From Thiohalophilus thiocyanatoxydans (GTDB lineage Bacteria > Pseudomonadota > Gammaproteobacteria > UBA6429 > Thiohalophilaceae), in assembly GCF_004366735.1 (NCBI RefSeq), contig NZ_SOQX01000001.1:558001-622000 (forward strand): a stretch of DNA of 64,000 nucleotides, written 5' to 3'. The notes under the pieces were generated by a model that worked only from the letters and a program-made list of their open reading frames with translations, did not search any database and had not been told where the DNA came from. The translations under genes were made by a program, and so were the position numbers. Shown one piece after another: positions 16,650-22,770 of this stretch (the first letter of the stretch is position 1; every line of letters begins with the position of its first letter).

Positions 16650-17504
16650 TCAGTTCTGGATGCCGAGATTTTTCCAGATCGCCAGGGTCGGGGCGGACTG
16701 GTTCATACAATAGAAATGCAGTCCGGGCGCGCCGGCCTCGAGCAGGGTATGACAGAGATCCGTGATAACCTCTTCACCGAACTGTTTAATGGATTCCTTA
16801 TCGTCGCCAAAATCTTCCAGGCGCTTGCGAATCCAGCGCGGGATATCAGCGCCACACATATCGGAAAAGCGTGACAGTTGCTTGTAATTGATAATCGGCA
16901 TAATGCCGGGAATGATCGGCAAATCAACATTCATCCGCTCGCACTCGTCGATAAACCGGAAATAGGCATCCGGGTTAAAGAAGTACTGGGTAATAGCGGT
17001 ATCGGCGCCGGCTTCCACCTTGCGTTTGAAGTTTTTCAGATCATCCGAGGCAGACGGTGCCTGGGGATGAATTTCCGGATAGGCGGCCACTTCGAGTTCG
17101 AAGTAATCACCGGTCTCGGCGCGAATGAATTCGACCAGTTCATTGGCATAGCGAAGTTCACCGGGACCACGCATGCCCGAGGGCATATCACCGCGCAGGG
17201 CCACGATACGCTTGATGCCGTTTTCCTTGTAACCGCTCAACAGCTCCCGCAGGCCGTCCTTGGTTGTACCAATGCAGGACAGATGCGGCGCGGCATCATC
17301 ACCGGATTTCTGGATCTCAGCGACAGTGTCGAATGTCCCTTGCTGGGTACTGCCGCCGGCACCAAAGGTGACCGAGTAATAACGCGGTTGCATGCCTTTG
17401 TTCAGGTTCTTGCGAACCTTGCGCAGTTTCTCCGCGCCTTCTTCCGACTTGGGCGGGAAAAACTCCACACTGTAAACGGGTGAGTATTTCTTTTGTGATT
17501 CCAT
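16650..17504 (-). CDS. metF: MetF, 5,10-methylenetetrahydrofolate reductase
   Basis: A 284-residue flavoenzyme that makes 5-methyltetrahydrofolate, the methyl donor for methionine synthesis. The N-terminal SVEFFPPKSEEGAEKL carries the catalytic glutamate. Family segments YSVTFGAGGST, IVALRGDMP and EVAAYPEIHPQA are all present, and the length is typical (about 290). It lies 88 bases downstream of ahcY on the same strand, completing a metK-ahcY-metF methyl-cycle cluster. This supports methionine and SAM regeneration for the adjacent betaine pathway. A homocysteine methyltransferase gene is not in the window. Confidence 0.95.
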   Translation of the reverse strand: MESQKKYSPVYSVEFFPPKSEEGAEKLRKVRKNLNKGMQPRYYSVTFGAGGSTQQGTFDTVAEIQKSGDDAAPHLSCIGTTKDGLRELLSGYKENGIKRIVALRGDMPSGMRGPGELRYANELVEFIRAETGDYFELEVAAYPEIHPQAPSASDDLKNFKRKVEAGADTAITQYFFNPDAYFRFIDECERMNVDLPIIPGIMPIINYKQLSRFSDMCGADIPRWIRKRLEDFGDDKESIKQFGEEVITDLCHTLLEAGAPGLHFYCMNQSAPTLAIWKNLGIQN

Positions 17505-17592: not shown

Positions 17593-19011
17593 TTAGTAAC
17601 GATAATGTTCAGACTTGTACGGACCTTCAACCGGGACACCGAGGTAGTCGGCCTGTTCCTGACTCAGCTTGGTCAGCTTGGCGCCAATCTTGCCAATGTG
17701 CAGGGCCGCAACTTCTTCGTCCAGTTTCTTCGGCAGCACATAAACACCGAGCGGATAGTTTTCCGGCTTGGTGAACATTTCGATCTGGGCAACCACCTGG
17801 TTGGTGAAGGAGTTGGACATCACGAAACTCGGATGGCCGGTACCGCAACCCAGGTTGACCAGACGACCTTCGGCCAGCAGGGTGATGCGCTTGCCGTCAG
17901 GGAAGACGATCTGATCGACCTGCGGTTTGATGTTGATCCATTCGTACTTGCGCAGGCTTTCGACCTGGATTTCGTTGTCGAAGTGACCGATGTTGCAGAC
18001 GATGGCCTGATCTTTCATGGCCGCCATGTGGTCGTGGGTGATGACGTCCTTGTTACCGGTCGTGGTAACAAAAATGTCGGCCTGACCAACCGCTTCGTCC
18101 AGCGTGACAACACGGTAACCTTCCATTGCGGCCTGCAGGGCGCAGATCGGGTCGATTTCGGTAATCCAGACATTGGCACCGAGACCGCGCAGAGACTGGG
18201 CGGAACCCTTGCCGACGTCGCCGTAACCGCAGACGACGGCGATCTTGCCGGCAACCATAACGTCGGTAGCACGCTTGATGGAATCCACCAGGGATTCACG
18301 GCAGCCGTACAGGTTATCGAACTTGGACTTGGTGACGGAGTCATTGACGTTCATGCCGGGGAACAGCAGCTCACCATTGTTAAACATCTGGTACAGACGA
18401 TGAACACCGGTGGTGGTTTCTTCGGTCACGCCCTTGATGGATTCGGCCATCTTGGTCCACATGCCCTTGTTGTTTTCGAAGTTGCGTTGCAGCACACCGA
18501 GAACGGCACGGAATTCTTCGTTTTTCTCCTGGGCAGGATCCGGAACGGCACCGGCTTTTTCAAATTCCACACCCTTGTGAACCAGCAGCGTGGCGTCGCC
18601 GCCGTCGTCCAGGATCATGTTCGGCAGTTCGCCGTTGGGCCAGGTCAGTACCTGCTCGGTGCACCACCAGTATTCTTCCAGGGTTTCACCCTTCCAGGCG
18701 TAAACCGGGATACCCTGCGCGGCGATAGCGGCAGCGGCGTGGTCCTGGGTGGAGAAAATGTTACAGGAAGCCCAGCGTACTTCGGCACCCAGTGCAACCA
18801 GGGTTTCGATCAGTACAGCGGTCTGGATGGTCATGTGCAGGGAACCGGTGATACGAGCGCCCTTGAGGGGCTTGTCCTTGCCATATTTTTCGCGCAATGC
18901 CATCAGACCGGGCATTTCGGTTTCGGCGATATCCATCTCCTTGCGACCGTAGTCGGCAAGGCTGATGTCCGCGACTTTGTAATCTGTAAAGTCTTTGGGA
19001 ACAGCGTTCAT
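17593..19011 (-). CDS. ahcY: AhcY, S-adenosylhomocysteine hydrolase
   Basis: A 472-residue NAD-dependent enzyme that splits S-adenosylhomocysteine into adenosine and homocysteine, relieving product inhibition of methyltransferases. Recognisable motifs are the NAD-binding [15 protein letters not shown], the substrate region [15 protein letters not shown], and the C-terminal [10 protein letters not shown]. The length reflects the insertion of about 40 residues found in many bacterial forms. The upstream region carries a SAH riboswitch (19029-19140), so the gene should be turned on when SAH builds up. It lies between metK and metF on the minus strand. Confidence 0.97.
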
Positions 19012-19028
19012 GTTGTAGCTCCGTATTT

Positions 19029-19140
19029 CACGGTGAGCGCCGTTGTTTATTTAGACTGGGTGGTCTGAGCCTGACCCTGCTACCCAATCCGGCTGATTTC
19101 CAACCGGATTGGGTAGCAAGGCTGCAGCGCTCCTCAGATC
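19029..19140 (-). ncRNA. S-adenosylhomocysteine (SAH) riboswitch in the ahcY leader
   Basis: On the minus strand the leader contains TCTGAGGAGCGCTGCAGCC, then CAGGCTCAGA, then ACGGCGCTCACCG, the conserved blocks of the SAH riboswitch. The P1 stem is TCTGAG (19138-19133) with CTCAGA (19069-19064). The pseudoknot is GAGCGC (19132-19127) with GCGCTC (19040-19035). The variable stem is unusually long: 15 perfect base pairs, TGCTACCCAATCCGG with CCGGATTGGGTAGCA. It ends about 18 bases before the ahcY start codon, a position that allows control of ribosome access. Known members turn expression on when SAH binds. Confidence 0.9.
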
Positions 19141-19208
19141 CCCAGTGAATTCTTGATGACTACATTATAGTAGGGGGAGGCCGGACCTCCCCCGAAAACC
19201 GCATTTTA

Positions 19209-20369
19209 TCAAATGCCGGCTGCTTTCTTCAGCTCTTCGGCCTTGTCGGTCTTCTCCCAGGGGAGATCCAGGTCTTCGCGACCGAAGTGACCATGGGCTG
19301 CCGTGGGAGCGTACATCGGGCGCAGCAGGTTGAGCATTTTCACCAGGCCACCGGCACGCAGATCGAAGTGTTCGCGAACCAGTTCCTCGATGCGCTCCTC
19401 GGAAACCTTGCCGGTACCGAAGGTGTCAACCGAAATAGAGGTCGGCTCGGCCACGCCGATGGCGTAGGAAACCTGGATTTCACAGCGCTTGGACAGGCCC
19501 GCGGCAACAATGTTCTTGGCCACATACCGACAGGCATAGGCGGCGGAACGGTCTACCTTGGACGGGTCCTTGCCGGAGAAGGCGCCACCACCGTGACGAC
19601 CCATACCACCGTAGGTGTCTACGATGATCTTGCGGCCGGTCAGACCACAGTCACCTACCGGGCCACCGATAACAAAACGACCGGTCGGGTTGATGTGGAA
19701 TTTGGTGTCCTTGGTGATCCAGCTTTCAGGCAGTACCGGCTTGATGATTTCGTCCATCACGGCATCCTGCAGGGTGTTGAGATCGATTTCCGGGTTGTGC
19801 TGGGTCGACAGTACAACGGCGTCGACACCTACCGGCTCACCCTTGTCGTAGCGGAAGCTGACCTGGCTTTTGGCGTCCGGGCGCAACCACGGCAGGGTGC
19901 CGTTCTTGCGAACTTCGGCCTGACGGCGTACCAGACGATGCGCGTAGGTGATCGGCGCGGGCATCAGCACGTCGGTTTCATCGGCGGCATAGCCGAACAT
20001 CAGGCCCTGGTCGCCAGCGCCCTGTTCCTTGTCGTCGCCTTCATCCACGCCCATGGCGATATCGGGAGACTGCTTGTCCAGTGCAACCAGCACGGCGCAG
20101 GTTTCCCAGTCAAAGCCCATTTCGGAGCTGTTATAGCCGATTTCCTTGACACGTTCGCGCACGACAGTCGGCATATCGATTTGCGCGGTGGTGGTGATCT
20201 CACCAGACAGGATAACCATGCCGGTATTAATCATGGTTTCGCAGGCAACACGGGATTTGGGATCCTGCTCCAGCAGTGCATCGAGAATGGAGTCGGATAT
20301 CTGATCCGCAACCTTGTCGGGATGACCCTCGGAAACCGATTCAGAGGTGAAGATATATTTCTCAGCCAT
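19209..20369 (-). CDS. metK: MetK, S-adenosylmethionine synthetase
   Basis: A 386-residue enzyme that makes SAM from methionine and ATP. Diagnostic motifs are [26 protein letters not shown] and the glycine-rich [17 protein letters not shown] good ribosome site (GAGAGGA) precedes the ATG at 20369. It is the first gene of the minus-strand metK-ahcY-metF series and diverges from the glycine methyltransferase operon across a 710-base intergenic region. The gap to ahcY holds the SAH riboswitch, so metK and ahcY may be separately tuned. Length and motifs show no irregularity. Confidence 0.97.
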
Positions 20370-21079: not shown

Positions 21080-21895
21080 GTGACCCAAGAAAAGAAAACG
21101 CAAGATTTCGGTAATGATCCTTTAAAAGTCCGTGATACGGATCACTACAAAGACGAATATGTCTCCGGCTTCGTAGACAAGTGGGACGAACTGATTGACT
21201 GGGACGGCCGTGCCAACAGCGAGGGCGACTTCTTCATTAAGCTATTGAAGGAACACGGTGCCAAGAAGGTGCTGGATGTGGCGGCGGGAACCGGCTTTCA
21301 CTCGGTTCGCCTCCTGGAAAGCGGTTTTGAGGTTACCAGTGCCGACGGCAGCCCGGAAATGCTGGCCAAGGCGTTTGAGAACGGCCGCAAGCGCGGACAC
21401 ATTCTGCGCACTGTGCATGCCGACTGGCGCTTTTTGAACAAGTCAGTGCATGACCTGTATGACGCCGTTATTTGTCTCGGTAACTCCTTTACCCATCTGC
21501 ATAGCGACAACGATCGCCGCAAGACACTGGCCGAGTTTTATGCCACTTTGCGCCATGACGGTATCCTGATCCTGGACCAGCGTAACTACGATGCCCTGCT
21601 GGATCACCAGGTTCAGCCGACGCATAACTACTACTATTGCGGCGATAACGTGAAGGCCAGCCCGGAGCATATCGATGAATCCCTGGCACGTTTTCGCTAT
21701 GAGTTTCCCGATAAATCCGTTTATCATCTCAACATGTTCCCGCTGCGCAAGGAATACGTGCGCAAGCTGATGCGTGATATCGGTTTCCAGAAAGTAACCA
21801 CCTACGGCGACTTCAAGGAAACCTATCGTGAAGCCGAGCCGGACTTCTTTATTCACGTGGCTGAAAAACGCTATATCGAAGGGGAGAACGAATGA
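21080..21895 (+). CDS. gsmt: Glycine/sarcosine N-methyltransferase (betaine synthesis)
   Basis: A 271-residue SAM-dependent methyltransferase that methylates glycine to sarcosine and on to dimethylglycine. It closely resembles the Ectothiorhodospira/Halorhodospira enzyme in conserved stretches DFGNDPLKVRDTDHYKDEYV, FVDKWDELIDWD, ENGRKRGHILRTV and LDQRNYDALLDH. The SAM-binding loop is LDVAAGTGFHSVRLLE. I use the GTG at 21080, which has AAGGAAA a short distance upstream; the frame extends to a TTG at 20972 that lacks support. It overlaps the next gene by four bases. With that partner it makes glycine betaine, a compatible solute, using three SAM per molecule. Confidence 0.93.
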   Translation: MTQEKKTQDFGNDPLKVRDTDHYKDEYVSGFVDKWDELIDWDGRANSEGDFFIKLLKEHGAKKVLDVAAGTGFHSVRLLESGFEVTSADGSPEMLAKAFENGRKRGHILRTVHADWRFLNKSVHDLYDAVICLGNSFTHLHSDNDRRKTLAEFYATLRHDGILILDQRNYDALLDHQVQPTHNYYYCGDNVKASPEHIDESLARFRYEFPDKSVYHLNMFPLRKEYVRKLMRDIGFQKVTTYGDFKETYREAEPDFFIHVAEKRYIEGENE

Positions 21896-22734
21896 GTGAA
21901 GGCTATTCCGACGTCGTAGAAACGGCACGCGATTACTACAACAGCGAAGATGCCGATAATTTCTATTACCACGTCTGGGGTGGTGAGGACATCCATATCG
22001 GACTTTACCAGTCCGAGGATGAGCCGATTCGCGATGCCAGCCGGCGCACTGTCGAGTACATGGCCTCCAAAATCACGCTCAAGCTTGATGCCGACAAAAC
22101 GGTCCTCGATATGGGGGCCGGCTACGGCGGCGTGGCCCGCTATCTGGCCAAAACCTATGGCTGCAAGGTGGTCGCCCTGAACCTGAGCGAGCGGGAAAAC
22201 GAACGCGATCGCGCGATGAACAAGGAGCAGGGCCTGGATCACCTGATCGAGGTGTGGGATGGCAGTTTTGAATCGGTTGCTGCCGACGATGCCAGCTTTG
22301 ACGTGGTCTGGTCACAGGATTCCATCCTGCACAGCAGTGAGCGGGCCAGGGTGATCGCCGAGGCCGCGCGAGTACTCAAGCCCGGCGGTGAGCTGATCAT
22401 GACCGATCCGATGCAGGCCGACGATTGCCCGGAAGGCGTGTTGCAGCCGGTCTATGACCGGATTCACCTGCCGTCACTGGGCTCCATCGGGTTTTACCGC
22501 GAAGCGGCCAGACAGAACGGCCTGGAAGAGGTGGAGATCGAAGAGATGACCGAGTACCTGGTCAAGCATTATGGCCGGGTGCGTCGCGAGCTGGAGCAGA
22601 ATCGCGAGAGCATCACCGACAAGGTCTCCGACGCCTATATCGATCGCATGATCACCGGCCTGGGCCACTGGGTCGAGGCCGGCAGCCAGGGCTATCTGCG
22701 CTGGGGCGTCCTCCATTTCCGCAAACCGGCATAA
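21892..22734 (+). CDS. sdmt: Sarcosine/dimethylglycine N-methyltransferase (betaine synthesis)
   Basis: A 280-residue methyltransferase that carries out the later methylations to glycine betaine. Conserved features are ARDYYNSEDADNFYYHVWGG, GGEDIHIGLY, the SAM site VLDMGAGYGGVARYLA, and VWSQDSILHS. The ATG overlaps the preceding stop (ATGA) and is preceded by GGGGAG, so the two enzymes should be made together. Downstream is a perfect palindrome and a REP unit. The pair is a marker of halophilic bacteria able to make betaine from scratch. Confidence 0.93.
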   Translation: MSEGYSDVVETARDYYNSEDADNFYYHVWGGEDIHIGLYQSEDEPIRDASRRTVEYMASKITLKLDADKTVLDMGAGYGGVARYLAKTYGCKVVALNLSERENERDRAMNKEQGLDHLIEVWDGSFESVAADDASFDVVWSQDSILHSSERARVIAEAARVLKPGGELIMTDPMQADDCPEGVLQPVYDRIHLPSLGSIGFYREAARQNGLEEVEIEEMTEYLVKHYGRVRRELEQNRESITDKVSDAYIDRMITGLGHWVEAGSQGYLRWGVLHFRKPA

Positions 22735-22740
22735 GTGCCA

Positions 22741-22770
22741 GTAACGAGTCGCTAGCTAGCGACTCGTTAC
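22741..22770. repeat. Perfect 30-bp palindrome
   Basis: The half-site GTAACGAGTCGCTAG and its exact reverse complement abut without a loop, six bases after the betaine operon. It may act as a hairpin at the transcript end, though no T-run follows. Shorter versions of the same ACGAGTAACGAGT wording occur near 29230-29250, 47275-47300 and 54365-54385. Confidence 0.6.

Follow-up and report, generated by a model that had tools for sequence, protein, structure and literature searches.

The locus and its SAH riboswitch

The window, by which we mean the whole 64-kb stretch of DNA analysed, carries metK, ahcY and metF in a row on its minus strand, with an SAH riboswitch between metK and ahcY. A glycine/sarcosine N-methyltransferase gene (GSMT), whose start codon at 21080 was picked by eye, and a sarcosine/dimethylglycine N-methyltransferase-like gene (SDMT) run divergently on the plus strand. 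The features are listed below.

16650..17504, minus strand: metF, methylenetetrahydrofolate reductase, probably co-transcribed with ahcY (TIGR00676, 320.6 bits)
17593..19011, minus strand: ahcY, adenosylhomocysteinase, the presumed controlled gene (TIGR00936, 643 bits)
19018..19038, minus strand: predicted alternative hairpin that pairs the Shine-Dalgarno sequence (fold and pair probabilities)
19019..19022, minus strand: Shine-Dalgarno sequence of ahcY, GGAG (from the sequence)
19028..19141, minus strand: SAH riboswitch aptamer, RF01057 (52.3 bits against a cut-off of 37, E 8.7e-7, model positions 1-78 of 78)
19035..19042, minus strand: 3' strand of the pseudoknot, of which 19036-19038 are shared with the start of the Shine-Dalgarno-hiding hairpin
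19062..19068, minus strand: 3' strand of P1 (Rfam alignment)
19074..19123, minus strand: extended P2 arm, 50 nt, a stem of 22 unbroken pairs capped by a 5-nt loop
19125..19132, minus strand: 5' strand of the pseudoknot (8 pairs, invariant at 7 of the 8)
19134..19140, minus strand: 5' strand of P1 (Rfam alignment; both-sided change at 5 of the 7 P1 pairs in alignment A2)
19164..19193, minus strand: GC-rich hairpin (19173-19193) followed by TATAAT (19169-19164) in the gap between metK and the switch (fold and sister-species identity)
19209..20369, minus strand: metK, SAM synthetase, the upstream gene (TIGR01034, 617.3 bits)
21080..21895, plus strand: GSMT, divergent neighbour outside the switch (NF051855, 498 bits, cut-off 350)
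21892..22734, plus strand: SDMT-like neighbour (NF041675, its best family, at 453.5 bits, below the cut-off of 550)

When both strands of the window were scanned with cmscan, RF01057 (SAH riboswitch) was the sole Rfam family over its gathering threshold; neither SAM/SAH (SAM_SAH) nor any other SAM riboswitch family of Rfam exceeded gathering within the window. The match is a single copy in the genome-wide search, and the same search gave none in the control genomes (0/14). The first-pass annotation had identified an SAH riboswitch at 19029-19140 and had proposed a covariance search, which bears the identification out. Its limits are correct to one base at each end, and the strand, which it did not give, is minus. 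The P1 helix and the pseudoknot that it described as drawable can both be drawn, P1 with one non-standard pair; the pseudoknot (19132-19125 with 19042-19035) is paired in all six aligned sequences, our own among them. We find a score over gathering, P1 and a pseudoknot around a conserved core, and a position in the leader of a SAM-cycle gene, 16 bases separating the end of the match from the ahcY start codon. The 141-nt leader folds to -68.2 kcal/mol, compared with -39.3 ± 3.7 kcal/mol for 200 shuffles, none of which was as low, and the arm accounts for most of the difference. By these sequence comparisons the feature is confirmed as a standard SAH riboswitch, ordinary but for an unusually long arm. 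In the SAH riboswitch regulon as published (PMC4239095), ahcY and metF are core targets.

The arrangement metK-switch-ahcY is common in the family. Among the family metK-ahcY loci fetched, ahcY is present in 24/24 and metK lies upstream on the same strand in 23/24, the one locus without metK being cut at a contig end. In the gap between metK and the switch, the hairpin and TATAAT at 19164-19193 weakly suggest a possible boundary and promoter; a consensus scan called no promoter-like or terminator-like site there, and the element has no T-run. Two further observations concern the surroundings. Just past the SDMT-like gene, at 22741-22770, lies a perfect 15-nt inverted repeat with no spacer, and the motif AGTCGCTRGY occurs four times in the window against 0.4 expected.

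The history of ahcY may differ from that of its neighbours. In the AhcY tree the proteins of the genus group with those of other families (G291, G179, G033, G217 and the long-branched G036; support 98), while the nearest MetK and MetF rows, the genus itself aside, belong to its own family. The riboswitch core reads GAGGAGCG, as it does in G033, G179, G217 and G291, though not in G036; GAGGGGCG stands at the same core position in 17 of the 25 family sequences. A transferred copy may have taken the place of ahcY at this site, perhaps bringing its leader along.

Predicted control of ahcY translation

In SAH riboswitches, binding of the ligand switches expression on. The leader studied here contains competing structures compatible with such an ON switch. 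The hairpin at 19038-19018 pairs all four bases of GGAG and starts at the 3'-edge bases of the pseudoknot, 19036-19038. Because the pseudoknot and the hairpin are mutually exclusive, binding of SAH is expected to expose the ribosome site. In the mechanism we propose, 19036-19038 would, when SAH is absent, form the opening of the hairpin that covers the ahcY Shine-Dalgarno sequence; with SAH bound, the pseudoknot would take these bases and leave the Shine-Dalgarno sequence free, and the AhcY produced would then remove SAH. A terminator-like site was also called on the plus strand in the 3' part of the riboswitch (19030-19043); five such sites were called in the 2.1 kb scanned, against 2.0 expected.

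The sister species (G001) retains the platform, its loop being longer. We parsed 36 of the 38 family leaders (L128 and L129 were left out), using a fold program that does not weigh the pseudoknot against the hairpin. The Shine-Dalgarno sequence is more paired than not in 30/36 and the bases overlapping the pseudoknot in 29/36. Three further family leaders lie near the threshold, with Shine-Dalgarno pairing of 0.51-0.52, and at the chosen threshold the Shine-Dalgarno sequence is not hidden in 6 of the 36 platforms. The z score of the platform fold is below -1 in 28 leaders and above -1 in the other eight, some of which are above 0 (mean of all 36, -2.8). The same hairpin/pseudoknot design is thereby predicted to recur in the family with differing sequences. 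Family membership, gene order, the competing pairings with their recurrence, and covariation of the arm can all be read from the DNA; SAH binding and the direction of control are what we infer from them. We consider it very probable that the ahcY(-metF) leader contains a genuine SAH riboswitch and that it acts as a translational ON switch.

The extended P2 arm

The core of the arm, 19118-19104 with 19092-19078, is a perfect Watson-Crick run of 15 pairs by computed run length. It is the 15-bp perfect stem of the first-pass annotation, and it lies uninterrupted within the 22-pair stem. Of the 38 family loci, all parsed by a motif script, ours alone reaches a perfect run of 15, and the median arm is 17 nt. 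The further claim that the arm is unusually long holds in part. Of the 150 class-sample matches listed, 4 reach at least 114 nt, our own included (median 80, 95th percentile 108), but longer arms do occur in relatives.

The class sample, searched with Infernal's stricter filters, has the switch in 154 of 369 genomes; one genome, G146, has a second RF01057 match beyond those listed. Arms were read in the listed matches of at least 97 nt and in low-scoring genomes, and are at least 45 nt long in 8 of the 154 switch-bearing genomes: G000, G015, G036, G074, G129, G178, G193 and G303, those of G193 and G303 (both GSMT-negative) measuring 46 nt each. The motif script parsed 41 of 49 class loci at first pass and the remaining eight were retried. 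Two arms, in L222 (match of 98 nt) and L238, were read by eye as 33 and 43 nt; L215, L218 and L219 stayed outside the parsed set, and their matches of 75, 77 and 85 nt are, by the arithmetic of the parsed loci, too short to hold an arm of at least 45 nt. Outside the class sample, long arms were seen in G001, G012 and G407, the last being the one addition from the orders of G074 (six genomes, four with the switch) and G129 (one genome). A model of the long arm, R2, run over 379 class genomes at least 97% complete with Infernal's stricter filters, matched 62 of them and found no new long-arm members; only G000, G074 and G015, all in its training set, exceeded 100 bits, and the next match scored 62 bits over 81 bases. 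In five other loci (L123, L029, L124, L235, L236) it is the joint between P1 and the pseudoknot strand that is lengthened, to 55-63 nt, and not the arm.

The metK-ahcY spacer of the sister species is identical at 185 of 201 aligned bases, the chief difference being the arm tip, and its arm differs from our own on both sides of two pairs. The proximal arm can be aligned free of gaps with those of G015 (own family), G074 and G407 (family f36) and G129 (family f91). Like our own, the long arms of these four genomes and of the sister species start with AGCC, end with GGT and share 17 alignable pairs; our tip is the shortest, with its 5-nt loop, whereas theirs are longer and structured. In the covariation alignment of these six sequences, 96.1% of cells of the arm helix are paired and double-sided changes are found at 9 of its 17 pairs. 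When all 32 pairs of the structure are taken together, the covariation score was unmatched by 500 shuffles, and sliding the partners by 1-3 columns lowered pairing from 95.3% to 42% or less. The aligned arms were chosen as long hairpins, so the pairing itself is partly a product of selection; the independent evidence for the arm is the alignable sequence together with the double changes. Compared with letter shuffles, the 12 proximal bases gave p values of 0.006 for G000-G074, 0.0008 for G074-G129 and 0.29 for G000-G407 (21 pairs, uncorrected). The distant, GSMT-bearing genome G178 has an arm stem of 15 pairs (locus L217, 1501-1619). This arm resembles the aligned ones marginally, sharing 7 of 12 bases with that of G000 (p 0.04, one of six comparisons), and it was kept out of the group.

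The same alignment bears on two other explanations of the inverted repeat. Its clean palindrome could be a DNA operator rather than an RNA arm, for instance for the SAH-responsive regulator SahR, whose sites are 20-bp palindromes (PMC4239095). However, the repeat sits within the aptamer, its half-sites are separated by 5 nt here but by tens of nt in the five related arms, and the double changes preserve pairing; on the spacing of the half-sites we reject an operator as extremely improbable. The great variation of arm length among close relatives might instead point to a recently inserted repeat or mobile hairpin, which we think highly unlikely. The proximal arm can be aligned with arms of other families, the genome holds no second copy (beyond the two half-sites themselves, the best matches have E of 0.3 or worse), and, with up to 2 mismatches allowed, the pattern of the half-sites occurs 22+22 times in the genome against 23+29 for the reversed control. 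A genomic repeat was rejected on the absent second copy and on a half-site pattern no commoner than the control.

We return to the arm as an RNA helix. As arms are alignable over three families and double changes occur at 9 of 17 pairs, the stem looks evolutionarily maintained as a helix. The long-arm trait changes five times on the AhcY tree (77 rows, with six AhcY fragments dropped and G193 and G303 absent), and G405, from the genus of G074, has a short arm; both observations indicate that the arm comes and goes, and such fast gain and loss, with the short arm of G405, argues against an essential role. Its history may be that of an old arm often lost, of transfer between lineages, or of partial convergence. 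Most likely the arm is a peripheral extension that stabilises or insulates the aptamer fold and would not be needed for sensing. A bolder proposal, which we judge unlikely, is a long-arm SAH riboswitch subtype scattered among gammaproteobacterial lineages: its covarying P2 extension of at least 17 pairs, with sequence common to three families, would have its own function, for example as a folding clamp or as a site for RNase III or a protein, and in some of these lineages it would serve cells under a heavy SAH load from betaine synthesis.

Betaine synthesis and comparison with known systems

Three SAH are produced for each betaine made. The first-pass annotation had linked the switch to this by-product. 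That reading is supported in part: GSMT and SDMT-like genes do lie nearby, but the switch is present in 38/40 genomes of the order and GSMT exceeds its cut-off in 4/40 genomes of the relatives sample, our own included. In two of these four GSMT-positive relatives (G015 and G016), GSMT and the switch are on different contigs. Among the family regions fetched, GSMT-SDMT is found in metK-ahcY regions of the genus itself only. With the switch widespread in the order and GSMT in few relatives, the switch did not originate as a betaine device.

From 496 confirmed GSMT loci we also took the best 80, all in named genomes, with flanks of up to 10 kb, often shorter. Of these best 80, metK is present in 21 and ahcY in 10, and the covariance model R1 found the switch in the flanks of one, that of Arhodomonas aquaeolei, where GSMT, SDMT, metK, the switch (RF01057, 59.8 bits) and ahcY stand in a row (L183, 10001-14450). 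A weak R1 match at L209 (17.1 bits, E 0.35) was not counted. R1 found no switch in the other nine ahcY-bearing loci of the best 80 (9/9; the ahcY leader of L193 is cut off), nor did an Rfam scan of L184, L186, L189, L196, L197 and L211. In the class sample, the switch is present in 15/24 GSMT-positive and 139/345 GSMT-negative genomes (p 0.052, uncorrected for kinship). Arms of at least 45 nt occur in 3/15 GSMT-positive and 5/139 GSMT-negative switch-bearing genomes of that sample, with a p of 0.031 that ignores kinship and a 45-nt threshold set post hoc. The AhcY tree does not support a tie between arm length and GSMT, as about two of four independent pairs agree on it (median p 0.5; G193 and G303 absent). 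The genome comparisons also fail to link the switch itself to betaine genes.

These counts weigh against reading the switch as an indirect osmotic response element, a scheme in which salt would induce GSMT-SDMT, SAH would rise and AhcY would be turned on. On the other side, both examined genomes of the genus have GSMT and SDMT in divergent orientation to metK-switch-ahcY-metF, and Arhodomonas aquaeolei is a second lineage that pairs GSMT-SDMT with a switch-led ahcY. Published work adds that SAH strongly inhibits the GSMT-SDMT reaction of betaine synthesis, that SAH removal aids the synthesis, and that gene clusters to this end, among them those of Halorhodospira, are already known (PMC7824335). 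Some halophiles cluster betaine methyltransferase genes with metK, ahcY and metF (PMC7824335, PMC9062515). Our literature searches for the SAH riboswitch together with glycine betaine, and for S-adenosylhomocysteine hydrolase with glycine betaine and sarcosine in a halophilic context, found nothing; one combining riboswitch, osmotic, glycine betaine and S-adenosylhomocysteine returned, judged by its listing, none on this link. In the genus studied here, GSMT-SDMT probably increase the SAH load by making betaine, so the switch may respond to this synthesis indirectly; any salt response is hypothetical. We hold the osmotic reading to be possible, if rather doubtful; the suggested link of the switch to salt-stress betaine synthesis would be recent, and an osmotic role for it is a hypothesis. 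Since GSMT-SDMT lie near the switch both here and, separately, in Arhodomonas, it becomes testable whether osmolyte synthesis loads an SAH switch.

Compared with other RF01057 riboswitches of the ahcY type, the element is alike in its core blocks, P1, pseudoknot and place ahead of ahcY-metF, and both its identity as an SAH riboswitch and its predicted translational switch are easy to read. It differs in P2, which has 6 pairs in the Rfam consensus and 22 here, an insertion relative to the model; P2 of this riboswitch class can reach 17-22 pairs and appears to be kept helical. As for the genes, the GMT-DMT-MAT-SAHase-MTHFR clusters described for Halorhodospira (PMC7824335) group the same five gene functions as the present locus. 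Our locus differs from those clusters in its divergent GSMT-SDMT pair, and its ahcY carries a riboswitch.
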